In this document: in pieces, positions 919-28,028 of the stretch | Numbering within the stretch: position 1 is the first letter of the stretch | Layout of the letters: each line of letters begins with the position of its first letter | DNA from: a bacterium | GTDB taxonomy: Bacteria > Vulcanimicrobiota > Vulcanimicrobiia > Vulcanimicrobiales > Vulcanimicrobiaceae | Direction of reading: 5' to 3' | Length of the DNA stretch: 40,326 nt | Assembly: GCA_021781595.1 (NCBI GenBank) | Contig: JAJXWN010000004.1 | Coordinates: forward strand, 1-40,326 | The notes under the pieces: model-generated | Databases searched by the model: none | What the model was told of the DNA's origin: nothing | Seen by the model: the letters and a program-made list of their open reading frames with translations, nothing else | Made by a program: the position numbers and the translations under genes

Positions 919-943
919 TGTCATCCTGAGCCTGTCGAAGGAC
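919..943 (+). repeat. 25-bp dispersed repeat TGTCATCCTGAGCCTGTCGAAGGAC, copy 1
   Basis: Identical to 8801..8825 in the same orientation. Confidence 0.9.
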
Positions 944-1155
944 GATGGCGGCGCTGGAGTTCTTCCAACAGCGTGACGGCGCTCAGGTGCGCGCTTGCCT
1001 GCAACAACGGCAACAGCTCAGGGCCCCCCCTGGCGTCCAGCTATTGCACCAATCTTCGAACGCGAATACCAAACCCACCTACATCATGGGACATTCCTTG
1101 CAGGCGGTCGGCCCACTCGTGCAGGCAGTCGATAATGTCGTGGCGGTACCGCTAG

Positions 1156-1208
1156 ACCGGAGTTACGGACAGGCTGCTCATCCCTCCAAGCCTTTTTGTA
1201 ACTCCGGT
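1156..1208. repeat. Perfect 11-bp inverted repeat ACCGGAGTTAC/GTAACTCCGGT with 31-bp spacer
   Basis: Arms 1156..1166 and 1198..1208 are exact reverse complements. Confidence 0.85.
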
Positions 1209-1265
1209 GTAACCGCGCGCGACGTAAAATTGAGGATGCCAACGGCTAGAAAGAGGCAGATCGCT

Positions 1266-1790
1266 ATGAGCGCTTCGCGGATGAGATTCGCGATCGTCCT
1301 GGTATCTTTAGGGTTCTTAGCAGCGTGCGGGCCGGTCGTTCGCGCGAGCGCGGCGTCGAGGCCGTACGTTCGTGCGGCCTCGACGCTTGATGCGGGGAGA
1401 TACCTCGTTATCGTCGGCGGCTGTAACGACTGCCATACTCCGGGCTGGGACCAGTCCGAGGGTGGTCTTCCCGAGTCGAAGTGGCTTACGGGGAGCGACC
1501 TGGGTTTCCGCGGGCCCTGGGGCACGTCGTATCCGGCAAACCTGCGGCTGTTCGTCGCTCACACCACAGAAGCGGAGTGGCTGCATCTTGCGCGCGCCGG
1601 CACAGGTAACCCGCCGATGCCGTGGACGAACCTGCACGCCCTGAGCACGCGGGACGCGCGAGCGATCTACGCGTTCATTAAGGCGCTGGGCCCGGCCGGT
1701 GGCGAGGCCGCAGCTTACGTGCCGCCCAATCGCGAGCCAACGGAGCCGTACATCCTCTTCGAGCCCCAGCAACCTGCCAGGAGGCCGTGA
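1266..1790 (+). CDS. Secreted/lipid-anchored mono-heme c-type cytochrome
   Basis: Start at ATG 1266 gives a signal sequence (MRFAIVLVSLGFLAACG), CNDCH heme motif and PMPW as likely Met ligand; the upstream extension of the ORF to 945 is probably non-coding. Confidence 0.8.
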   Translation: MSASRMRFAIVLVSLGFLAACGPVVRASAASRPYVRAASTLDAGRYLVIVGGCNDCHTPGWDQSEGGLPESKWLTGSDLGFRGPWGTSYPANLRLFVAHTTEAEWLHLARAGTGNPPMPWTNLHALSTRDARAIYAFIKALGPAGGEAAAYVPPNREPTEPYILFEPQQPARRP

Positions 1791-1802
1791 GGTGTTCCGA
1801 TC

Positions 1803-2384
1803 GTGACGGCGACAGCCGAGGCCCAGCCGCTCTTGCCCCCGCTTCCGCTTTACCGCCAATTGATGTGGTGGACGGTCGCCTTTCCCGTCGTCATGATCGT
1901 CGCGCTTGCCGCGCGCAGCTTCTATCTGCTCAACTGGATTCACGTGCTCTCGGGAGCACTCTGGACCGGCGCCGACCTCTTCATGGGCTTCGTCATCGGG
2001 CCCGTGCTCAGAAGTCTCGACGCGCGCGCGCGCACGGCGGTCATCGCCTACCTCGTACCGCGCACGGTGCTGTACTTTCCCATGGTTTCGCTCACCACAG
2101 GCACGGCCGGCTGGTTTCTGGCCTCATCGCTGGGCTTCCTTACCCCAGGCCATCCGCAGTTCCCGTGGGCAATCGGTGCCTTGGTCCTCGTGACGGTCAT
2201 GACGATCCAAGGACTGGGCGTTATGCTCCCCAACAGCATGCGCATCTGGAGCGAGCTGCGGCGCCTCGAACCTAATCGCGAGCGTATCATGCGACTCAAT
2301 CGCACCAACATCGTCTTGGCCGGCGCCCAGGGCGTGATGCAGATCGCAATCATCGTAGTGATGGCTCACTTCGTCGTTGGGTAA
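1803..2384 (+). CDS. Polytopic membrane protein, DUF2269/CopD-like
   Basis: 193 aa, several TM segments, NWIHVLSGALWTGADLFMGFVIGP; 12 bp after the cytochrome gene. Confidence 0.65.
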   Translation: MTATAEAQPLLPPLPLYRQLMWWTVAFPVVMIVALAARSFYLLNWIHVLSGALWTGADLFMGFVIGPVLRSLDARARTAVIAYLVPRTVLYFPMVSLTTGTAGWFLASSLGFLTPGHPQFPWAIGALVLVTVMTIQGLGVMLPNSMRIWSELRRLEPNRERIMRLNRTNIVLAGAQGVMQIAIIVVMAHFVVG

Positions 2385-2527
2385 CGTTCGAGATGAATTC
2401 CCCTTGCTCGCGAGACCGCGGCCGGTGGAGGCACAAAATGAGAACTTCAATGGCTAGGAACGCAGGCAACCTTGCGGGCAAGCCTTTCTTGCGCAGTTCT
2501 CGTAACCACGAAAACGAGGGCAAGACC

Positions 2528-3100
2528 ATGGGCATCGATCGTGTCGCGCGGCGGGCACTTGCCGTACTGCTGATGACCTCCTCGTTCGTCGGCCGACCAG
2601 TCATGGCCGCTACGCGCGTGACGATCCCCGGAGGCACGCAAGTGGTCGTGAGCCTGGTCCAGAAGCTCGACTCGGGAACAGCGAAGGTCGGTGATATCTT
2701 CAATTTTTCCGTGGACCACGACGTGGCTGCGAACGGCTGGATCGTCATTCTTAAAGGAGCCGGCGGTCAAGGCGAAATCGTTTCTGTCGATCGAGCTGGT
2801 GGGAGCGGGCACCCCGGAAGCCTTGGATTAAAGTTCGATTTCGTCTACGCTGCGGACGGCGAGAAGGTACGGCTCTCCAGCGCCAGCGGCAGCGTGCAGG
2901 GCGAGCAAAAGAAAGGTGCGGCTTCGACTGCTACGGTCATAGGGTATGCCACGCTCGGATTGGGCGGGTTGTTCTTTCACAACTGGGTGAAAGGGCGCAA
3001 CGTGGTGCTCGATCCATCCCGCACTTTCACCGCCTTCGTGGATCACACCGTTCACGTGATGGCGACGCAGCGGGCGCCGGCCAGCCAGTACGCTCACTGA
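2528..3100 (+). CDS. Secreted protein of unknown function
   Basis: MGIDRVARRALAVLLMTSSFVGRPVMAATRV signal peptide, then a beta-rich domain; ORF track starts at 2393 but ATG 2528 fits the signal peptide. Confidence 0.6.
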   Translation: MGIDRVARRALAVLLMTSSFVGRPVMAATRVTIPGGTQVVVSLVQKLDSGTAKVGDIFNFSVDHDVAANGWIVILKGAGGQGEIVSVDRAGGSGHPGSLGLKFDFVYAADGEKVRLSSASGSVQGEQKKGAASTATVIGYATLGLGGLFFHNWVKGRNVVLDPSRTFTAFVDHTVHVMATQRAPASQYAH

Positions 3101-5709
3101 GCCGCGAGCGAAGCAGAGGCGGCTCTTGCCGCGTCTACGCGCATCGCGCGTACGCGTTCCGCCGCCCGAAGGCCCCACGACGCGGGCAGTTCTTCGGGAA
3201 CGTCGCGCAAGAGCCTCTTACCGGCACGCATGGCGGCAAGACAACCGCGCTTGGCAAGCTCGGCATAGTGCTCTGCGACGTCGAGATCAACGCATGCGAC
3301 CTGCGGGGAGAGCGCATAATCGCCGGCCGTCGCCACAATCAACTCTTGGCTGCGCGTGCGTCGGCGCACGCGGTTCACGCAGACTTTCAACGCGTTGAAT
3401 GCGGCGTCTTCGTCGCACCCCGACCAGAAGGTGTCGACCAGCTCTGTGCGTCGAACGGGCCGGCCGCGGGCCGCGAACAGCAAAACGAGTTCGAGCTCTC
3501 GCTTTCCCAGGCGGAGCACCTCGCCATTACGGCGTAGGCACCGAGGCACGAGATCGACGTGCACGCACGTACGCGCGCGCTCTCCGGCTTCGCGGAAGCG
3601 TTGCGCAAAGCGCGTCAGAACACCACACGAAGCACGACCTTTACGGACCGACGCGATGGCGTCCCGATATGCAGGAAAGTCGCTACGCCTGGCATAGCTC
3701 AAGGCTCCGTCGAGCAGCGCGATGCGTTCGGGGTCGAAGCACGCTAGCGCGGTATATGCGAGCGTAACTCCCCAGAAACCACGCGTCGCAGTGGCGATTC
3801 CATACGCCTCCTCAAGCGCAGTCGACGCGTCTTTCTCTTCCGGCACGGCGGCGGCGTACATCAAACGCAGGAACGACGCATCGCCCCTCGTGCGTTCCGT
3901 GCCGCTCCACGGCAATCCCCATGAAGCCTCAAGCATTTGCTGCGCTTCGTGCGCGGCCAGATCGTTCGGAACCGTAGGATCGGACAGCAGCGCCAAAAGA
4001 TCCGTACGATAGCGCTCGAGCAATCCGTCGTCGCCAAGCAACCAGGCGAGTGGTATGGCCTTGCCGAGCGCGATCCTTTCGTGTATGGGGTAGCGCGTTC
4101 GGCGAGCTGCGGCGACCATTCGCTCGAGCGATGCGGCCGCGAGTGCGAGCCGGCCGCGCAAAATAGCGATGCGTGCTTCCGTCGTATAATGCTCGGTCAG
4201 AGCGATTTCGGAACGCGAGATTGCCGAACCGTAACGATGCCACAATGCTGTATCGTCGTACTCTTTCCCGTTGCTGACCGCAGCGTAGGCGCGAAAAAGC
4301 GGAATATACGCGTCCGCATCGTTGCGCGCGCCCATCTTTCCTCTAAGGCGCGGTAATTTCTCGAAAGAATCGAGCAGGCGAAATGCTCTTTGCCATTCGC
4401 CGCGATCGGAGAGATGGTAGCACGCAATCGCAATGCATGCGGCACGCGTCCCCAGGGGAACGCTCCGTGGCAGCCGCGCGATGATATCGCGCACCTCCGG
4501 CGCGAGCGTACTGAAGCGATTCTGCCAATAGATGGACGACAGCGCCCAAAGCTCGGGAAAACGGACGACGACGGTGCGTCCCAAACGTTCAAGCACTGCG
4601 AGATACCGCGGCGCTGGAATATCCATCATGCCTGTTCCTACGCGAACGAGCGCGCGCGCGGCTTTGTTGTCGTTACCACGTTGCAAATGAAGTTCCGCGC
4701 ATCGCAGGTGGTTCCCACGGAGCCGCGCAGTTGCGACGGTGCCCGCCACTATCTCGTCGAACGCCGCTCCATGTAGACGCGTGATCGCCGCGCGCGCTAT
4801 CGGATGCATCTCGTAGATCCCGTCGTTGCGCCGCGTTATAAAGGGAAACGCGGTCAGCAAACGATCGGCGAAAAGCCGCGTTGCGAGCGTATCGTCGCCG
4901 CCGGGAAAATCTTCCTCGCGGGGCTGTTCGATCGCGGCGCAGCACATCGCTCCGGTACGGAGGTCGTCGGGCAACGAACGCAACAACTGAGTTAGCAGGA
5001 TATCGGCCAGCTCCGGTGGCGACGTGCGTTCCGCCGTAAGGTCCCGTATGTTGCCACCCTCACGCATATATCGTGCCGCCTGCGCCGCCGCGAACGGCCA
5101 GCCGCCCGTCCATCCGTACGTTCGAGCGATCTCTGCGGAAGAGACGGCACTGCCGTCGAAGAGCGCCGCGAACTCGCGCATCGAGAAACGTAGTTGCTGC
5201 TCGCGCACGGAGACGTTTTCGTGGGGAAACACCGTATCGCTCCAGCGCAGAGGAAGGTCGCCGCGGCTGCACACTATCAGCGTTCCGCGTGGGCGCTTTG
5301 CGAACAGCGCCGCCAACAATGCACGTGCTTCACTTTTCTCAGGGATATCCTCGACGTTTTCGAGGATCAGCACGCCGCATTCCGGCAAGACGTCCCAGAT
5401 CTGTTCGAGGTATGCCCGCCGATCGTCGACGCTTGAGAATGCAAGAGCGGCTTCCTCGTCTTTGATCCGCTGGCCACGCTCGCCCGCGAGGATCGAGAAG
5501 GCATCGAACAAACGGCGAGTAAGCTCGACGATATCCCGCGCTCCGCGGCAATCGCAGGAGGCGTTTTTCGGAAAGCGACGCGCGAGCTGCGCTGCCATGA
5601 CGGATTTGCCGAACCCAGCCGGAGCGATCAATCGATAGACTTTGGCCTCGCAGGCGACTAGCGCGTCAACGAGGTCGCGTTCGACGGCGTATGGCGACGT
5701 AACGATCAT
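3094..5709 (-). CDS. ATPase (MalT/STAND-like) transcriptional regulator with C-terminal wHTH and truncated BTAD-like tail
   Basis: P-loop APAGFGKS; LILENVED and LIVCSR core motifs; wHTH LRLGKRELELVLLFAARGRPVRRTELVDTFWSG; only ~65 aa after the wHTH. Confidence 0.75.
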   Translation of the reverse strand: MIVTSPYAVERDLVDALVACEAKVYRLIAPAGFGKSVMAAQLARRFPKNASCDCRGARDIVELTRRLFDAFSILAGERGQRIKDEEAALAFSSVDDRRAYLEQIWDVLPECGVLILENVEDIPEKSEARALLAALFAKRPRGTLIVCSRGDLPLRWSDTVFPHENVSVREQQLRFSMREFAALFDGSAVSSAEIARTYGWTGGWPFAAAQAARYMREGGNIRDLTAERTSPPELADILLTQLLRSLPDDLRTGAMCCAAIEQPREEDFPGGDDTLATRLFADRLLTAFPFITRRNDGIYEMHPIARAAITRLHGAAFDEIVAGTVATARLRGNHLRCAELHLQRGNDNKAARALVRVGTGMMDIPAPRYLAVLERLGRTVVVRFPELWALSSIYWQNRFSTLAPEVRDIIARLPRSVPLGTRAACIAIACYHLSDRGEWQRAFRLLDSFEKLPRLRGKMGARNDADAYIPLFRAYAAVSNGKEYDDTALWHRYGSAISRSEIALTEHYTTEARIAILRGRLALAAASLERMVAAARRTRYPIHERIALGKAIPLAWLLGDDGLLERYRTDLLALLSDPTVPNDLAAHEAQQMLEASWGLPWSGTERTRGDASFLRLMYAAAVPEEKDASTALEEAYGIATATRGFWGVTLAYTALACFDPERIALLDGALSYARRSDFPAYRDAIASVRKGRASCGVLTRFAQRFREAGERARTCVHVDLVPRCLRRNGEVLRLGKRELELVLLFAARGRPVRRTELVDTFWSGCDEDAAFNALKVCVNRVRRRTRSQELIVATAGDYALSPQVACVDLDVAEHYAELAKRGCLAAMRAGKRLLRDVPEELPASWGLRAAERVRAMRVDAARAASASLAAQ

Positions 5710-7904
5710 TGCCGGAAACGCTCGGTAAGGTCGCGCAAAGCGGGCGAGGGAACGGTGCCGAGTTCGTCACGTACCACCTGCGCGAAGCGTTCGTATGCGA
5801 CGACAGCTGCTCGGGCGTCTTCCTCCCGCGCATAGCTACGGATCACCAACTCGCAGCCGTACTCGTCGCAGGGATCGGCAACCAACAGGTCGAGGCCAAG
5901 CGCGCGCAGTTCTTGCGCATTGCGGCAAGCACGCGGGGAATTCGCAAGCGCCCGCGCCAGTTCGTGACTGAGGGCGTGCAGGCGCGCCTCGATCGGTGCA
6001 AACCATTCGGCGTCGCGCAGTCGCGGGGGACGGGTCGCCCTCACCAGGTGCCGGAACTGCCAGAGTAGCTCGTAGTTGCCCTCTGCCGTGGCAACACTCA
6101 ACGCGGCCGTGAGATCCATCAGGTCTATCACAACTGCCCCCGATAGCGCATAACGGCCGTCCCGGAAACTCACCAGCGCAGGATCCTCTGCGCGCGCACG
6201 CAGCCGTGAGATGGCAACCTTGCATGCTCGCCGCGACGACTTACTATCGTGATCGGACCATATGCTCTCGGCCAATCGCTGTGCATTCATGGTCCGGTCT
6301 GGGACGGTGGCCAGCGTAAAAAGGACGGCACATTCTCGCTGCGAGCAGCTTAGCACGACGCCGTTCTTGCGAACCTCGCCTCCGAAGAGCGTTATCTCGA
6401 TCGGCCCGCCGGCTCGCTCGCGGTTTGCCAGCATACGCGCTGCATCTTCCAAGAAATGGTCGCCGATAGCGAGCGCTAAGCGTAAAGCGTCTGCCACGCG
6501 CTGTTCGCCGTTCGCCGAAGAGCTTCTAAGTCGCAGGAGGGCGGCGAGCGCTTGCGCTCGCATGCCCGATTCTGCTTGTCCCGGCTCGACCGGAATGCGT
6601 GGCGCGCCGCCGTGGACGATGGTCACGAGAGCCTGTTCGGCACATACTTCGCATTCCAGCGCCGCATCCTGCATGGCCTCCGCAATCGAGCATGCGACAT
6701 CCCAGTGCTCGTCCGCGATATCCTGGATGCCTTGCAGAGCGGCATTGCGAGCCAACTGCGCGTGCGCCATTGCGGCAACTGCCGTAGACTCTCCCGCCAA
6801 AGCTTCCAATCCCGCCCGTATCTCCGCCCCTCGATCGCCGTGCATGCGATCGAGCAGTATGGAACGGTAGAGTGTCAGCGCGCGAACCTCGGACGAGGCG
6901 TAGCCCGCGACCTGTGGATCGTCGCATGCTGCTAGAGCGGGCATCACATCGCCCATCGCCATGCGCGCACGAGCGACGCAGAGGATCACAGTGGCGTGCT
7001 CTACAGGCGACAGCGTCCGCGAGGCGACTTGCGCGATCATCGTGGCTTCTAGCAGTCGTTCGCGTGGGGTTCTGCGCCGTTCTCGTTCCTTGAACGTCGC
7101 CGTCCATAACCGTGGATGCCGCAACAATACCGCAAAGGGCAGCGCCGCCGCCGCGGCTCGGCCATTCCCATCGAGCGCGGTCTCGTCGAGCATCTCCGCC
7201 GCGCGCTCGAAATGCTTGGCCGCGATCGCCCAGCGCGCCGCAAGCAGCGGCTCACCACTTTGCTCGACCGCGAACGAACGCCGCAGAGAGTGCGCGATCA
7301 GTTCTTTTCCTTGCCGCGCTCGGACGGCAGCCGCCAGCAGCGGATGTACCCAGTTGTGCCCATCGGCATCGCAGAGCAGCATCGGCACGTCTTTCACCCG
7401 CGACGCTGGATCCTCAACGAACAGGTTCTCATCGCTTTCGCAGGTGATTCGAAACAGCAGCGCGTCACGCGTCCGTTCGGTGCACGCCTTCCATACTTGC
7501 TCGTCGAGGTAGTCGTAGAGATCGTCGTATACAGGCGAGCAAAGATCAGCCAACGCGTCGTCGAGGAGTCCCATACGTACCAGCCGCCGGAAGTAGAGTG
7601 CTCCGGCAGGCCAGCCGCGAGTCAACTCCACAATCCGCTCGAACGCCGTAGGCGAGAGCCCGGGGAGAGCAAACAGCATGTGCATCTCGGCCTCGTCGAA
7701 GGCGAGTTGCGAAGGGCCGACGAGAGCTGCCCCTTTCACCTTTGGACGTAGGCGAGACTCCTCGATGGGAGAAAGCACGCCGTTTTCGCGCAGTATCGCC
7801 GCAAACGTTGATTTGCCGTAGCCCGGCGGAGCGCACAACGCTATCGGGCGTTCTGCACGCCGCAGCTCGTTCACCAGTTCTTTCCGGCGTGGCGAAGCGA
7901 TCAT
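5706..7904 (-). CDS. BTAD-type transcriptional regulator with degenerate N-terminal ATPase
   Basis: P-loop CAPPGYGKST; wHTH LSCSQRECAVLFTLATVPDRTMNAQRLAESIWSD; full BTAD-like C-terminus ending DELGTVPSPALRDLTERFRQ; stop overlaps the next start (ATGA, 5706..5709). Confidence 0.75.
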   Translation of the reverse strand: MIASPRRKELVNELRRAERPIALCAPPGYGKSTFAAILRENGVLSPIEESRLRPKVKGAALVGPSQLAFDEAEMHMLFALPGLSPTAFERIVELTRGWPAGALYFRRLVRMGLLDDALADLCSPVYDDLYDYLDEQVWKACTERTRDALLFRITCESDENLFVEDPASRVKDVPMLLCDADGHNWVHPLLAAAVRARQGKELIAHSLRRSFAVEQSGEPLLAARWAIAAKHFERAAEMLDETALDGNGRAAAAALPFAVLLRHPRLWTATFKERERRRTPRERLLEATMIAQVASRTLSPVEHATVILCVARARMAMGDVMPALAACDDPQVAGYASSEVRALTLYRSILLDRMHGDRGAEIRAGLEALAGESTAVAAMAHAQLARNAALQGIQDIADEHWDVACSIAEAMQDAALECEVCAEQALVTIVHGGAPRIPVEPGQAESGMRAQALAALLRLRSSSANGEQRVADALRLALAIGDHFLEDAARMLANRERAGGPIEITLFGGEVRKNGVVLSCSQRECAVLFTLATVPDRTMNAQRLAESIWSDHDSKSSRRACKVAISRLRARAEDPALVSFRDGRYALSGAVVIDLMDLTAALSVATAEGNYELLWQFRHLVRATRPPRLRDAEWFAPIEARLHALSHELARALANSPRACRNAQELRALGLDLLVADPCDEYGCELVIRSYAREEDARAAVVAYERFAQVVRDELGTVPSPALRDLTERFRQ

Positions 7905-8181
7905 GACCGCACGTTGCTGCCCTGCAGCGACCTCCCCCTCGGTGGGGAACCGGTGTGAGCGCTATTCGTTAAAGCTCGCTCTCCTCCAGATTTTCTCCGC
8001 GTGCGCGTCAGGTCTTTCTAGGCACGCTACCTCCAGCGCGTTGCGTTTTGCCAGGCCGTTCTCAGCCGTGCCCGAAAGATACAACAAAAGCTCGGATTCT
8101 TGGGAACTGTAGCGCAAAGTCGTACAGATCGGTCGGTTCTATTGTATGACTGAACAAACGCGACCCGATCGAGAGGGCTGC

Positions 8182-8330
8182 ATGGCGTACAATCTGATCG
8201 GCGCGCGACGGGAGCAAAACTTGCTTCTTCCTCCGGTGCTGAGCGATTAGCTCCCGCCCGATCACCTGGTCTACCAGGTCACCGATGCGGTCGAGCAGAT
8301 GGATATCGTCGCTACAACGCTGAGGGCACC
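8182..8330 (+). pseudogene. N-terminal remnant of an IS1182-like transposase
   Basis: MAYNLIGARREQNLLLPPVLSD*LPPDHLVYQVTDAVEQMDIVATTLR: transposase N-terminus with an in-frame stop, then abrupt loss of homology. Confidence 0.6.
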
Positions 8331-8338
8331 GGGCCCCG

Positions 8339-8385
8339 GCGGCCACTTCAAACTGCACCAGGCGCGGCCACTTCAAAGTGTATCA
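8339..8385. repeat. IS21-type multiple terminal repeats (2 copies of GCGGCCACTTCAAA[C/G]TG[C/T]A[C/T]CA)
   Basis: 8339..8360 and 8364..8385, 19/22 identical, next to the istB C-terminal remnant. Confidence 0.65.
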
Positions 8386-8389
8386 GCCC

Positions 8390-8623
8390 GACTATTTTCG
8401 GGCGTTCGGATGACCCGTACGCGCCTGCCGCCGTCTCCTTCGCCTTGCAGGATCGAGCGGTGAGGCTGCGCTCATGCAGTCGGTAACTCTTCCCGCGAAT
8501 CTCGATCAGATGCGAATGGTGCATCAGCCGGTCGAGAGACGCCGCAACGGCCGATTCGACGTCGGCATCGTTGAGGCGCGTTCGTAGCGGCGCATCACGA
8601 TCTCGAGTAAGTCTTCGGCGAAG
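8390..8623 (-). pseudogene. istB: istB (IS21-family helper ATPase) C-terminal remnant, frame-disrupted
   Basis: Minus strand reads FAEDLLEIVMRRYERASTMPTSNRP, then in another frame AASLDRLMHHSHLIEIRGKSYRLHERSL; both are IstB C-terminal motifs with the segment between them deleted. Confidence 0.65.
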
Positions 8624-8669
8624 GGTCAGACTAATCGCGCCGTTGCGGTCAGGGTAATCCCGCCGTTGC
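8624..8669. repeat. Tandem 23-bp direct repeat GGTCAG[AC/GG]TAATC[G/C]CGCCGTTGC, probable second IS21-family terminal repeat set
   Basis: 8624..8646 and 8647..8669, 20/23 identical; abuts the truncated istB remnant. Confidence 0.6.
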
Positions 8670-8800
8670 CAGATGGCGAGCGTGGGTTCGTCGCTCCGCC
8701 ATCCTGGCTACGCTCGTCGGTCACAGCCGCTCGTGCAACGGCCCTCTTCCCCACGCACGGGACCGTCGCACAACCCGCGTTTCCTACTTGTCGCAAGCCG

Positions 8801-8825
8801 TGTCATCCTGAGCCTGTCGAAGGAC
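8801..8825 (+). repeat. 25-bp dispersed repeat TGTCATCCTGAGCCTGTCGAAGGAC, copy 2
   Basis: Identical to 919..943, same orientation. Confidence 0.9.
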
Positions 8826-22921: not shown

Positions 22922-23617
22922 ATGGCACTGGCGATCCTCTCCGCAACCGCCCGGTCCGAGGCCTTTCAGGCCCTGAAGGCGAGCCTGGATATGCGCTCGG
23001 CGGCGCTCGTGGAGGTCGAAGCGATCCTGCCCAGCGGCTTCGCGGAGCTCGACCGCGCCCTTTGCGGAGGGCTGCCGCGGGGTGGGATCGCTATCCTCGA
23101 AGGGGATCCGAGCTCGGGGCGGATGGCCATCGCCGCACGCTTCTTGGCGCAAGCGACGGCGCGCGGGCTGGCTGCGGCCGTCGACGACGGGCGTCTCTAT
23201 CCGCCCGATCTCGCGCGGGCGGGCGTGGCGCTAGAGCGGCTGCTGGTGATCCCGGCCGAACGCCCGCTCGAGATTGCGCGCGCGGCCGATATTCTGCTGC
23301 GCTCGCGAGTTTTCGGCGTGGTGCTCCTCCCGCAGGCGCCGTTACGGACGGCGCTCTGGTCTCGCCTTCGGGATCTCGCGCAGAAGGCCGCCGCGCTGCT
23401 CCTCGTCGTCGGCACGCAGGCGGAGAGTGATCTCGCGTCGTTTGCGAGCGCGCGCCTGCACTGCACGATCGAGCGCGTTTCGTGGACCGGCGCGCCGGGG
23501 CCGTTCTGCGAACTCGCGGGATACGAGATCGGCGCGCGCGTGCTCAAGCGGCGGCGCGCGATACCGGGCACGGTCGTGCGCGTGCGCGCGCTCGCAAAGC
23601 GCGGCGACGCGCTTTAA
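22922..23617 (+). CDS. imuA: ImuA, RecA-like component of the SOS mutasome
   Basis: ILPSGFAELDRALCGGLPRGGIAILEGDPSSGRMAIAARFLAQA (RecA/SulA-like fold); first gene of an imuA-imuB-dnaE2 cassette. Confidence 0.85.
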   Translation: MALAILSATARSEAFQALKASLDMRSAALVEVEAILPSGFAELDRALCGGLPRGGIAILEGDPSSGRMAIAARFLAQATARGLAAAVDDGRLYPPDLARAGVALERLLVIPAERPLEIARAADILLRSRVFGVVLLPQAPLRTALWSRLRDLAQKAAALLLVVGTQAESDLASFASARLHCTIERVSWTGAPGPFCELAGYEIGARVLKRRRAIPGTVVRVRALAKRGDAL

Positions 23618-23634
23618 CTGCGCCGGCATCATCG

Positions 23635-24906
23635 ATGTTGCTCTGCATCCACGTCCCAGGTTTTGCGGTGGCCGTTACCCGCACGCGCGAGGTGTGGAAC
23701 GCCATGCTCGACGCTCTCGACGCGCTCTCGCCGCTCGTCGACGATCTGGTCGAAGGCACGACCTACCTCGATATGCGCGGCATCGACGGCGCGCCCGGCG
23801 ACTGGGTGCGGCGCGCGCACGGTGTCCTCGCGGAGTTCGGCCTTCCGTTACGAGTCGGCATCGCCGCGAATAAGTTCGTCGCCCGCGCGGCGGCGAACGT
23901 ACGTGACGGATGCATCTGCGAACCGGGAGGCGAGCGGGCGCTGGTCGCACCGCTGCCGCTCGATCTGCTTGGGCTCGATCCGCCGACGCTGGAACGCTTG
24001 CACCTTTTCGGCGTTCGTACCCTCGGAGAACTGGCAGGCCTGCCGCACGGTCCGTTCGTGCGGCGTTTCGGCCGCGCGGCGTCACTTTGGCACGCGCACG
24101 CCTGCGGCGTCGACCCGGAACCGGTGTTTCCACGCGCTCGCGAACTACAGATCGACGCGTCGCTCTATGGCGAGGGTACGGCGGAACGTGCGGAGCAGGT
24201 GTATTTCGCGCTGCGTCTGCTCGTCGAGCGCGTCTGTCGCGATCTCTCCCGCGCGGGTAAGGCCGCGGCGCTGTTGCAGGTGACTCTCGAATGTGAGAAC
24301 GGCGATGTACGCGTGTTGCAGGTTGGGCTAGTGCGAGCGACGAGCGATCCGCACGCGATGCTGGATGTCCTGCGCGCGAAGATCGAAGGCGCGTCCTTCG
24401 GCGCTCCGATATCCGGCTTGCATCTGCGCGTGGCACGGTTGGAGGAGGGCGGCACGCCGGCCGCGCTCTTTGCATGTGGCGAACCAGATCCACAGGCCGT
24501 GGCTGTGGCGCTCGCACGGCTGGAAGCGGTATTGGGTGCGAGCGGTTCCCGCGCGCGCGTCGTGCCGGCGCGCCGCGTGGAGGCGCGTTTCGTGTACGAC
24601 GTATTCCTCCCACCGGCGTCCTTTGCATACGACGCTCTTGCGGAGCCGGCCGCACCGTCTGCCGTTCCGCAGTTGCGCTTGCTAGCGGTACGCGAAATCG
24701 ATGTCGTGCTCCGCGGTAACGCGCCATCGTTCGTCGGTTCTCCGCCGCGAGTGGTGATCGACTGCGCGGGGCCGTGGCGTATCGATGAAGGCTGGTTCGA
24801 TACGCCCGTCGCGCGGGACGAGTTTGACGTCCTTCTCGAAGACGGCGCGCTCTATCGCATCTATCGCCAAGGCGAGCGCTGGTACGTGCGGGGGGTGTAT
24901 GATTGA
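23635..24906 (+). CDS. imuB: ImuB, Y-family-polymerase-like mutasome protein
   Basis: MLLCIHVPGFAVAVTRTREVWNAMLDALDALSPLVDDLVEGTTYLDMRGIDG...RVGIAANKFVARAAA; the catalytic Asp of the usual hDhDxF motif is absent; start refined from 23482. Confidence 0.88.
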   Translation: MLLCIHVPGFAVAVTRTREVWNAMLDALDALSPLVDDLVEGTTYLDMRGIDGAPGDWVRRAHGVLAEFGLPLRVGIAANKFVARAAANVRDGCICEPGGERALVAPLPLDLLGLDPPTLERLHLFGVRTLGELAGLPHGPFVRRFGRAASLWHAHACGVDPEPVFPRARELQIDASLYGEGTAERAEQVYFALRLLVERVCRDLSRAGKAAALLQVTLECENGDVRVLQVGLVRATSDPHAMLDVLRAKIEGASFGAPISGLHLRVARLEEGGTPAALFACGEPDPQAVAVALARLEAVLGASGSRARVVPARRVEARFVYDVFLPPASFAYDALAEPAAPSAVPQLRLLAVREIDVVLRGNAPSFVGSPPRVVIDCAGPWRIDEGWFDTPVARDEFDVLLEDGALYRIYRQGERWYVRGVYD

Positions 24907-27900
24907 ATGGCCTGAATGAATACGCCGAGCTTCACTGCTGGTCGAATTTTACGTTTCTCGAGGGTGGGTCGCATCCCGAAGATCTGGTCGACCGGGCGTT
25001 GGAACTCGGCCTGAGAGCGCTGGCGCTGACCGATCGCGACGGCCTCTACGCTGCGGTGCGCTTCTCCAAACGCGCGAAGGCACGCGGCCTACCGGCGATC
25101 GTCGGAAGTGAGCTCGCCTTCGAAGACGGCGGGCGCATCGTGTTGTTGGTCGAAAATGAGCGAGGGTATGCCAACCTCTGCGAACTTATATCGGTCGCCC
25201 AGTTACGAGGAAGCAAAAACGACGCGCGCCTGCGCATCGAGGATTTCGAGGGGCGAGCTGATGGGATCGTACTCGTCTCCGGCGGTGCGGGCGGTGCGAT
25301 CGAGCGCGCACTGCTCCGTGACGAGCGGGCGGAAGCCGTTCGGCTAGCTTCGACGTTACGCGACCTCTTCGGCGAGCGATTATACTTGGAACTACAGATG
25401 CACTTGCATCCCGCCGACGCGCGCCGTTGTAACGCGGTGCTCGAACTCGCGCGCGATCTGCAGGTATCGTGCGTTGCGACTAACGGCGTCGTCTACGCGC
25501 GCAAGAGCGACGCGCACCTGGCCGACGTTCTGCTCTGCATCAAGCACAAAACGGATCTCTCCCACGCGCGCGCAAAAACGCTGCTGCGCCCCAACGCGGA
25601 GTACCATCTCAAAGAGCCGCGCATGATGGCGCAGATCTTTTCCGGCCATCCAAAAGTCATCGCCAACGCGGTGGCGATAGCCGAGCGATGCGCGTTTCGG
25701 TTCGATCGCCTCGACGGGCAATTCCCTCTATTTCCGGTTCCCATAGGATATACGCGGCAACGTTACCTGCGCGAACTCGTCTACCGTGGTGCGGCCGAAC
25801 GCTATGGAAGCACGCTCGCTCCGGAAGTCGAACGTCAGATCGAGTACGAATTGGGGATCGTCGCGAAGCTCGATCTGGCCGGCTACTTCTTGATCGTATG
25901 GGATATCGTGCGCGCCGCCGGCGAGATGGGCGTACTCTGCCAGGGCCGCGGCTCAGCGGCGAACTCGGCGGTCTGTTACGCGCTCGGCATCACGGCGGTA
26001 GACCCCATCGGCAGCCGGCTGCTCTTCGAGCGCTTTCTTTCGGAGGAGCGCAGGGAAGTTCCGGATATCGATGTCGATTTCGCGCATCAAGACCGCGAGC
26101 GGGTAATTCAGTACGTCTACGAGCGGTACGGCCGTGCGCACGCGGCGATGGCGGCGGAGGTCGTCACGTACCACGCCCGCTCGGCGATTCGAGACGTAGG
26201 CAAAGCGATCGGGATGACGCTCGCGCAAGTCGAAGCGGTCGCGGGCGAATACGATACGTGCGAATCGCTCTCCGGCGCAACCGGCGAAAACGAAGCCGCC
26301 AGGCAATTGTTCGAGTTGTGCGAGCGTATCGACGCTTTCCCACGCCACATGGGTATTCACTCGGGTGGAATGGTCATCACGCGCGATCCGTTGGTGCGCG
26401 TCGCGCCGGTCGAGTGGGCGACGATGCGCGACCGCACGGTCCTCCAATGGGATAAAGACGATCTCCAAGATTTGGGTCTCATCAAGATCGATCTGCTCGG
26501 CCTCGGCATGCTCTCGCTCTTGAGAGAGGCCTTCGCCCTTCAAGCGCGCATCGAGAGCGGTGCCGTGGAGACACTCCGCCGGCCTGCGCTGCTAGGGCTT
26601 CACAGCATCCCCCCCGGCGATCCCGAAACTTACGCTATGCTGCAGCGAGCAGACACGATTGGCGTCTTCCAGGTCGAATCGCGCGCGCAGCAGTCGATGT
26701 TGCCGCGTATGAAACCTGCGTGCTTTTTCGATATCGTGATGCAGATCGCAATCATCCGCCCGGGGCCGATTCAAGGCCGGATGATCCATCCGTTTTTGCG
26801 TCGCCGGGCAGGGCTCGAGCCGGTAACCTATCCCCATCCGAAACTCGAACCGATTCTCGCACGTACGCTTGGGGTGCCGCTCTTTCAAGAGCAGGGGATG
26901 CGCATGGCGATCGAAGCGGCCGGCTTCTCGCCGGGGCAGGCCGATCGCTTGCGGCGGGCGATGGGCCACAAGCGATCGCAGGAGCGCATGCGTGAAATCT
27001 ATCCGAAGCTGATCGAAGGCATGGTCGAAAACGGCATCGACCGAGACGCCGCCGAGCAACTCTTCCACATGCTGGAGGGCTTCGCCGATTACGGGTTTCC
27101 CGAATCGCACGCGGCGAGTTTCGCGCTGCTCACCTACGCGTCGGCGTACATGAAATGCCACTATCCCGCGGTTTTTTCGGCCGCGATCCTCAACGTGCAG
27201 CCGATGGGGTTCTATTCGACCGAGGTGCTCGTGAACGACGCCAAGCGACACGGCGTGACGGTCAAGCCGATCGAGGCGAACGCGAGCGAGTTTTGGAGTT
27301 ACGCCGACGCGGATGGCGCGTTGCGTTTGGGGTTCCACCTCGTGCGCGATCTGGGGGAAGCGCAGCGGCGGCGTTTGGAAACGGCGCTCGCACGCGGCTC
27401 TTTCAAAGATCTGCGCGAGTTCGCGATCCGTACGCGGCTCGAGAAAGACGCGCTCGAAAGCCTCGCGGTCGCGGGCGCGTTCGCGCCGTGGTTCGCGTCG
27501 CGGCGCGAAGCGATGTGGTCGTTACGCGGGCTCGGCGAGCGCGAGGCGCGCGGCGAACTCGGCCGTAGGATGGATATCGAGGAACCGCAAGCACATTTCG
27601 CGCGGCTCGCCCCGTTGCAGGAGACGGCGTTCGATCTCTGGTCGACCGGCATCACGCCGAAACAACAGGCGATCGCACACGTTCGACCATTCCTGGAGAT
27701 GCGCGGCGCGCTGACGGCCATGCAGATGCAGGCGGTGCCCGCGCATCGTTCGTGCCGGAGCGGCGGCGTGGTGATAACGCGCCAGCGCCCGGGCACGGCC
27801 AAGGGCTTCGTGTTCTTGACGCTCGAGGACGAAACGGGGCTGGTGAACGTGATCGTAAGACCCGACGTGTACGAACGCTACCGCCGCACGATCCGGCAAT

Positions 27901-28028
27901 CGCGGGCGCTGCTTGTGGAAGGCACGCTGCAGAAGAAAGGCGGCTGCGTCGATCTGCTCGCACGGCGCTTTTGGCCGCTCGATCTCGGTGCAGCGCTCGA
28001 GGGTTTGCGTTCGCACGATTTCCGTTAG
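24903..28028 (+). CDS. dnaE2: Error-prone DNA polymerase III alpha subunit DnaE2
   Basis: 1041 aa C-family polymerase (CQGRGSAANSAVCYALGIT; VPDIDVDFAHQDRERVIQYV; IRPGPIQGRMIHPFLRRR); TTG start overlaps the imuB stop. Confidence 0.95.
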   Translation: MNGLNEYAELHCWSNFTFLEGGSHPEDLVDRALELGLRALALTDRDGLYAAVRFSKRAKARGLPAIVGSELAFEDGGRIVLLVENERGYANLCELISVAQLRGSKNDARLRIEDFEGRADGIVLVSGGAGGAIERALLRDERAEAVRLASTLRDLFGERLYLELQMHLHPADARRCNAVLELARDLQVSCVATNGVVYARKSDAHLADVLLCIKHKTDLSHARAKTLLRPNAEYHLKEPRMMAQIFSGHPKVIANAVAIAERCAFRFDRLDGQFPLFPVPIGYTRQRYLRELVYRGAAERYGSTLAPEVERQIEYELGIVAKLDLAGYFLIVWDIVRAAGEMGVLCQGRGSAANSAVCYALGITAVDPIGSRLLFERFLSEERREVPDIDVDFAHQDRERVIQYVYERYGRAHAAMAAEVVTYHARSAIRDVGKAIGMTLAQVEAVAGEYDTCESLSGATGENEAARQLFELCERIDAFPRHMGIHSGGMVITRDPLVRVAPVEWATMRDRTVLQWDKDDLQDLGLIKIDLLGLGMLSLLREAFALQARIESGAVETLRRPALLGLHSIPPGDPETYAMLQRADTIGVFQVESRAQQSMLPRMKPACFFDIVMQIAIIRPGPIQGRMIHPFLRRRAGLEPVTYPHPKLEPILARTLGVPLFQEQGMRMAIEAAGFSPGQADRLRRAMGHKRSQERMREIYPKLIEGMVENGIDRDAAEQLFHMLEGFADYGFPESHAASFALLTYASAYMKCHYPAVFSAAILNVQPMGFYSTEVLVNDAKRHGVTVKPIEANASEFWSYADADGALRLGFHLVRDLGEAQRRRLETALARGSFKDLREFAIRTRLEKDALESLAVAGAFAPWFASRREAMWSLRGLGEREARGELGRRMDIEEPQAHFARLAPLQETAFDLWSTGITPKQQAIAHVRPFLEMRGALTAMQMQAVPAHRSCRSGGVVITRQRPGTAKGFVFLTLEDETGLVNVIVRPDVYERYRRTIRQSRALLVEGTLQKKGGCVDLLARRFWPLDLGAALEGLRSHDFR

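Follow-up and report, generated by a model that had tools for sequence, protein, structure and literature searches.

The closest described counterparts of the locus analyzed here are AfsR and the other large SARPs of Streptomyces. Two SARP protomers of AfsR occupy neighboring halves of a 22-bp box that consists of two 11-bp repeats and spans positions -40 to -19 (PMC10936776). The upstream protomer uses its DNA-binding domain to touch region 4 of the sigma factor, the downstream one relies mainly on helices 3-7 of its BTAD, both BTADs contact the alpha-CTD, and the inhibition exerted by the NTPase and TPR parts is lifted upon ATP binding (PMC10936776). The present locus shares with these proteins an OmpR-type wHTH joined to a BTAD, an apparently STAND-type NTPase, a TPR region, a predicted 22-bp box of two 11-bp repeats, and the same distance to the -10 element. 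However, whereas AfsR is a single chain with the SARP part at the N-terminus, two identical protomers of which occupy the DNA, here the same parts are distributed between two chains, P1 and P2, the wHTH-BTAD unit is C-terminal in P2, P1 has no BTAD, and the organism belongs to another phylum.

The window, that is, the whole stretch of 40,326 nucleotides that was analyzed, comes from a bacterium of the family Vulcanimicrobiaceae (GenBank assembly GCA_021781595.1, contig JAJXWN010000004.1) and encodes, on the minus strand, P2 (732 aa; 5706-7904) and P1 (871 aa; 3094-5709). The two genes share an ATGA stop-start overlap at 5706-5709, just as the initial annotation had it, and the overlap is also 4 bp long in three related genomes (G001, G002, and G028). 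P2 combines a bare P-loop with a helical/TPR-like region, a wHTH, and a BTAD, and P1 consists of an apparently complete NTPase of the type found in the family, a helical/TPR-like region, and a wHTH, with no full BTAD. Judging by the sequences, we consider it moderately probable that P1 and P2 together make up one SARP-like hetero-activator that is split between two chains. The succession of an OmpR-type wHTH and a BTAD that is characteristic of SARPs is found in P2 (residues 498-732), not in P1.

The P-loop of P2, APPGYGKST (residues 25-33; 7806..7832, minus strand), is followed, 36 residues past K31, by the segment LAFDEAEMHMLF, which begins at residue 67; in P1, LRFSMREFAALF begins at residue 173, that is, 138 residues past K35. 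These distances agree with those given in the initial annotation, and its claim that about 100 residues with the Walker B/sensor-like region are missing from the upstream protein, P2, withstood both alignment and Pfam analysis. Alignment to P1 and to single-chain homologs reveals the absence of about 100 residues, including Walker B and sensor 1, and places the deletion junction at residues 44-65 of P2 (7710..7775, minus strand), its least conserved stretch; of the AAA domain, Pfam detects only a P-loop scrap. A sequencing or frameshift artefact as the source of this deletion was ruled out, given that the deletion is identical in four genomes. Downstream, P2 contains a wHTH (residues 498-585; 6150..6413, minus strand; Pfam Trans_reg_C at 518-574), for which AfsR (8hvr) is the best match among solved structures, and a BTAD (residues 586-732; 5709..6149, minus strand; Pfam BTAD at 629-729, E 1.5e-08, along with matches to AfsR and EmbR). 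The orthologs of P2 in G001, G002, and G028 show 72-75% identity, and constraint is apparent along the whole of the protein. APPGYGKS is invariant across the four orthologs, and residues 1-43, which include the P-loop, are 81% invariant, with a dN/dS of 0.21 vs 0.29-0.37 elsewhere in P2, a modest signal in view of the shortness of the segment and its similarly low synonymous rate. The P-loop segment being its most conserved part, P2 is not decaying.

P1 retains what P2 has lost. Its Walker A motif, APAGFGKS (residues 29-36; 5602..5625, minus strand), is accompanied by a stretch extending from the Walker B-like VLILENVED (113-121) to the sensor CSR (147-149; together 5263..5373, minus strand). 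Pfam reports AAA_16 over residues 27-145 as a weak match under the curated cut-off; all NTPase positions are present, with ENxE as Walker B. The F.FEN.E and SR motifs are found, as in P1, in most single-chain homologs, which implies that the NTPase of P1 is the family norm and P2 is the one that underwent the loss. A weak match to MalT covers residues 21-261, and in both MalT/LAL proteins of the STAND class and P1, the NTPase is followed by a helical region. However, P1 and P2 carry an OmpR-type wHTH (Trans_reg_C) rather than the C-terminal LuxR-type HTH of MalT/LAL, and the Walker B of MalT is DD, vs ENxE in P1. The wHTH of P1 (residues 713-800; 3310..3573, minus strand; Trans_reg_C at 730-787) is intact and conserved (dN/dS 0.22), with AfsR as its best solved-structure match (E 0.003). 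Only about 70 residues follow, a tail with a BTAD-like start (residues 801-871; 3097..3309, minus strand), and Pfam detects no BTAD in P1. The first of these residues align with the start of the AfsR BTAD region, so it is chiefly the later BTAD helices that are gone from P1. Thus, Pfam mapping finds no intact NTPase in the 732-aa protein and no BTAD in the 871-aa one, the contrast between a full BTAD upstream and a short tail downstream stands, and the initially proposed complementary loss proved to be conserved in four genomes. AlphaFold predictions for P1 and P2, made from alignments of three rows, are poor models (mean pLDDT 45.8 and 44.4) that lend the two-part activator no structural support.

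The search for further pairs with the identical split, suggested by the initial annotation, recovered G001 and G002, which belong to the same genus as the window's genome, and G028, from another genus of the same family. The complementary pair, the ATGA overlap, and the deletions are common to the four genomes, P2 is 732-733 aa long in each of them, and P1 and P2 are 72-83% identical among them. Identical deletions, near-identical lengths, and a 4-bp overlap in three more genomes speak against both chance and sequencing error. The four genomes are close relatives and so do not amount to four independent cases. Across 149 genomes of the phylum, there are four pairs, one fusion, and one fragment; among 84,980 species genomes, a scan capable of detecting only close relatives yielded two pair records, apparently G001 and G002. 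Most homologs in the phylum are single chains of about 950-1000 aa that unite the NTPase, the helical/TPR region, the wHTH, and the BTAD, which makes the split a derived, rare state. Such relatives (e.g., L040, L042, and L047) are direct homologs of P1 and P2 and differ from these in forming a complete chain of ~950 aa, with no pair. Both P1 and P2 descend from this single-chain NTPase-TPR-wHTH-BTAD family, P1 minus most of the BTAD and P2 minus the NTPase core. Recent tandem duplication, with P1 and P2 as close sisters, is unsupported by the tree. In G018, a stand-alone wHTH-BTAD gene (273 aa) is immediately followed by the gene for a complete single-chain regulator (L120, 2114-5827), another small-plus-large arrangement that falls outside the P1 and P2 clades. 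Nothing relevant on split BTAD regulators, or on BTADs in Eremiobacterota, to which the organism may belong judging by gene content, turned up in the literature collection that was searched.

The same comparison bears on the view that P1 and P2 are ordinary tandem paralogs, that is, independent regulators within one operon that shed unneeded parts, with P2 decaying. The predominance of single homologs elsewhere and the lack of close sisterhood between P1 and P2 in the tree would fit this view, but we deem it highly improbable: P2 is intact in four genomes with the P-loop segment best conserved, and both the natural fusion and the common promoter box described below count against it. The initial annotation had treated homologs occurring mostly singly as an argument against a split system. 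The wider family indeed consists mostly of single complete chains, which limits the initial interpretation; the pair itself is kept in 4 of the 4 genomes and is additionally represented by a fusion.

The fusion comes from G037, a member of another family of the same order, and is a single 1104-aa chain with the architecture wHTH-BTAD-NTPase-TPR-wHTH and no second BTAD. The wHTH-BTAD of P2 is joined here end to end with the whole of P1, with the gene order kept. In the tree of wHTH(-BTAD) regions, the first 235 residues of the fusion group with P2 and the last part with P1, with support of 100/99 to 100/100 for both parts; the tree of the post-NTPase/TPR region likewise groups the fusion with P1. 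The chain thus keeps two wHTHs, one BTAD, and one NTPase. The N-terminal ~495 residues of P2 are absent, so this region is dispensable in some versions. A matching N-terminal piece of the fusion, 70% identical, was found in G040, where it is ended by the contig edge; hence, one complete fusion was seen. Such a fusion is a classic sign of P1 and P2 acting together.

The fused and split forms invite comparison with two further groups of regulators. The SARP-LAL regulators PimR, SanG, and FilR resemble the G037 protein in joining a SARP part to an ATPase half of the LuxR-LAL type, but they have no C-terminal DNA-binding domain, whereas the fusion carries a second OmpR-type wHTH (PMC10972967). In the window, this combination is divided between two genes. 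The mycobacterial PafBC is a heterodimeric activator with homologous subunits encoded together and with natural fusions (PMC6789036). Paired homologous genes that are fused elsewhere are also what P1 and P2 present, with the proviso that the fusion holds only the C-terminal part of P2; however, PafBC belongs to the unrelated WYL-domain family and has neither NTPase nor BTAD. As for SARPs proper, their N-terminal wHTH-BTAD is found only in the G037 fusion, the unit being C-terminal in P2. We therefore regard P1/P2 as a variant of the SARP/STAND activators, set apart from ordinary SARPs by the position of the wHTH-BTAD and the split, and from LAL regulators by the DNA-binding domain.

Alignment of the cytochrome promoters next to the pair revealed an 11-bp direct repeat, TGTAACTCCGN TGTAACC. 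In the window, a box composed of TGTAACTCCGN TGTAACCGCNC, 6 bp, and a -10 hexamer (1197-1230) precedes the adjacent gene for a c-type cytochrome: two 11-bp direct repeats, TGTAACTCCGG TGTAACCGCGC, conserved in four genomes, form the predicted operator (1197..1218, plus strand), and the predicted -10 hexamer, TAAAAT, lies 6 bp past this 22-bp box (1225..1230, plus strand). The spacing matches that in AfsR, where 6 bp is obtained by assuming, under standard numbering, a -10 element at -12 to -7. The box precedes the cytochrome gene in 4 of the 4 pair genomes; 0.06 occurrences are expected per window at <=1 mismatch. Exact copies of TGTAACTCCGNTGTAAC number one in the window's genome (G000), one in G002, two in G001, and two in G028, with no further copies in these genomes. 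In G001, they occupy the cytochrome promoter and the divergent cupredoxin promoter; in the window, the divergent copy is degenerate, with three mismatches (1151..1167, minus strand), and it is intact in G001, where it faces the cupredoxin gene. In G028, one copy is in the cytochrome promoter, and the second accompanies a FecR-domain gene on the opposite side of the pair and lies in an apparently copied promoter segment. In G037, two GTAACCTCGGCGTAACC copies are located right behind the fusion gene, in front of an ORF for a 159-aa wHTH protein and a gene for a secreted protein. All nine sites have the form 11 + 11 + 6 bp followed by a -10-like hexamer, so that, at the sequence level, direct repeats of 11-bp period just before the -10 element, as in SARP promoters, are found at 1197-1218 and at 8 other sites. 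The 159-aa wHTH protein of G037 (L063, 9378-9857), with a BTAD-like beginning only, lies behind a GTAAC box beside the fusion gene and is possibly a third, minimal member of the circuit.

The pattern GTAAC-N6-GTAACC-N11-ANMAT has nine matches in the 149 genomes, solely in the five pair or fusion genomes and always beside the pair or the fusion, and the reversed control has none in the same 149 genomes. The pattern was built from the nine sites, so their recovery is no test; its absence from 144 genomes is one, and so is its absence from the remainder of the five pair or fusion genomes. No box was found in five pair-free genomes that hold a homolog of the membrane protein encoded next to the cytochrome, and no GTAAC box in the genomes of single-chain relatives (e.g., L040, L042, and L047). 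It could be argued that the box belongs to another regulator or is a mere promoter type, its closeness to the pair reflecting shared ancestry of the block, because the four pair genomes inherited the block from common ancestry and the second box of G028 lies within a copied promoter segment. This account seems very unlikely to us: the G037 box adjoins the fusion yet precedes unrelated genes, the five pair-free genomes with the membrane-protein homolog lack the box, and no further copies exist anywhere in the pair and fusion genomes. Its presence beside the G037 fusion in front of unrelated genes, together with its absence from the five pair-free genomes, indicates that the box follows the regulator, and with considerable confidence we consider the box the likely operator of P1/P2. 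Autoregulation via the region upstream of P2 was considered and rejected: conservation of this region in the four genomes is confined to the vicinity of the gene, there is no box there in G000-G002, and the sole box upstream of P2, in G028, points the other way, within what is apparently a copied promoter.

The genes for the cytochrome, the membrane protein, and a 190-aa secreted protein are convergent with the pair. The first predicted target is a c-type cytochrome with a CNDCH motif (1254..1790, plus strand, start codon inferred), which is 82-91% identical beside the pair in G001, G002, and G028 and matches a fructose dehydrogenase cytochrome subunit with an E value of 2.4e-05. The second is a 193-aa membrane protein without a Pfam family (1803..2384, plus strand), 87-93% identical beside the pair in the same three genomes. 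This family, which is also present in five more, pair-free genomes, is marked by the invariant NWIHVLSG.LWTGAD. The secreted protein is encoded at 2528..3100 (plus strand, start inferred), and its version in G001 has its own box with two mismatches. All four genomes have the cytochrome and membrane-protein genes close to the pair, and three of the four also have the secreted-protein gene there; Pfam and NCBIfam searches assigned no family name to the three target-side proteins. In G001 and G002, the cytochrome gene has a divergently oriented cupredoxin gene as its neighbor, and in G028, a TnpB/Cas12f-like gene (weak Pfam match; L067, 5423-6892) separates the pair from the membrane-protein gene. 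Elsewhere in the window (22922-28028), there are ORFs that, judged by translation and gene order, resemble an ImuA-ImuB-DnaE2 mutasome cassette.

The regulators, the box, and the targets lie within an inserted block (923..8687) that, in the window's genome, sits between fliR and flhB; the window is the entire contig of a draft genome, within which misassembly is possible. In G001 and G002, the site is empty: within some 0.1 kb of fliR comes sequence matching the window from ~8688, with 923-8687 absent. A block homologous to window positions 1158-8021 is located elsewhere in both genomes, with the homology beginning at the box and stopping just upstream of P2. The empty site together with the block elsewhere implies that the regulators, the box, and the targets moved together, in either direction. 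Near both edges of the block, at 921-942 and 8803-8824, there are two identical copies of the 22-bp TCATCCTGAGCCTGTCGAAGGA in the same orientation, with no copy in the matching loci of relatives; the paired copies are possibly a trace of the movement.

The overlapping pair in 4 of the 4 genomes, the G037 fusion, and the presence of one box type beside both split and fused forms make the functional linkage between P1 and P2 well supported, and a hetero-complex with shared work appears reasonably probable. We infer a mechanism that involves binding, a hetero-complex, a fixed order of half-sites, ATP control, and activation. The wHTHs of P1 and P2 would lie side by side on the two 11-bp repeats, like two AfsR protomers on the afs box, and activate the adjacent genes for the c-type cytochrome and the membrane protein, in relatives also the cupredoxin gene, with P1 as the ATP-dependent sensing part and P2 supplying the BTAD that contacts RNA polymerase. 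The downstream protomer of AfsR employs BTAD helices 3-7, which P1 lacks; hence, by analogy, we propose that P1 would bind the upstream repeat, with P2 on the downstream repeat. Both AfsR BTADs touch the alpha-CTD, so the loss of the BTAD from P1 would change this contact as well. What can be added to the initial annotation is the separate wHTH in each protein, the two-repeat box that the two proteins probably read, and a set of predicted target genes.

A homodimer of P2 alone might instead read the box as an ordinary SARP, with P1 on no repeat, acting as a separate regulator or a modulator that restrains or frees P2. The wHTH-BTAD of P2 is complete, and the two repeats are nearly identical, as with homodimeric SARPs. 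We nevertheless find this scheme unlikely, because the wHTH of P1 is intact and conserved (dN/dS 0.22), and because G037 keeps both wHTHs in one chain, beside the same kind of box. The fully specified asymmetric form of the split SARP, in which P1 would occupy the upstream repeat and provide the only ATP switch, P2 would occupy the downstream repeat and contact RNA polymerase, and the regulators, the box, and the electron-transfer target genes would travel as one portable block, is put forward tentatively. Within such an arrangement, the P-loop of P2 possibly acts across the interface, either completing the nucleotide state of P1 or reading it.

The known SARP-type activators are single-chain proteins, and their two identical copies perform different jobs at the promoter. 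The natural split described here, if true, would mean that the ATPase and polymerase-contacting jobs are genetically separated and can be tested one by one. To our knowledge, there are almost no experimentally studied regulators in this phylum, and the present analysis offers specific predictions for it, namely an operator with its target genes and a regulator. It would also extend the promoter geometry of the SARP type beyond actinobacteria.
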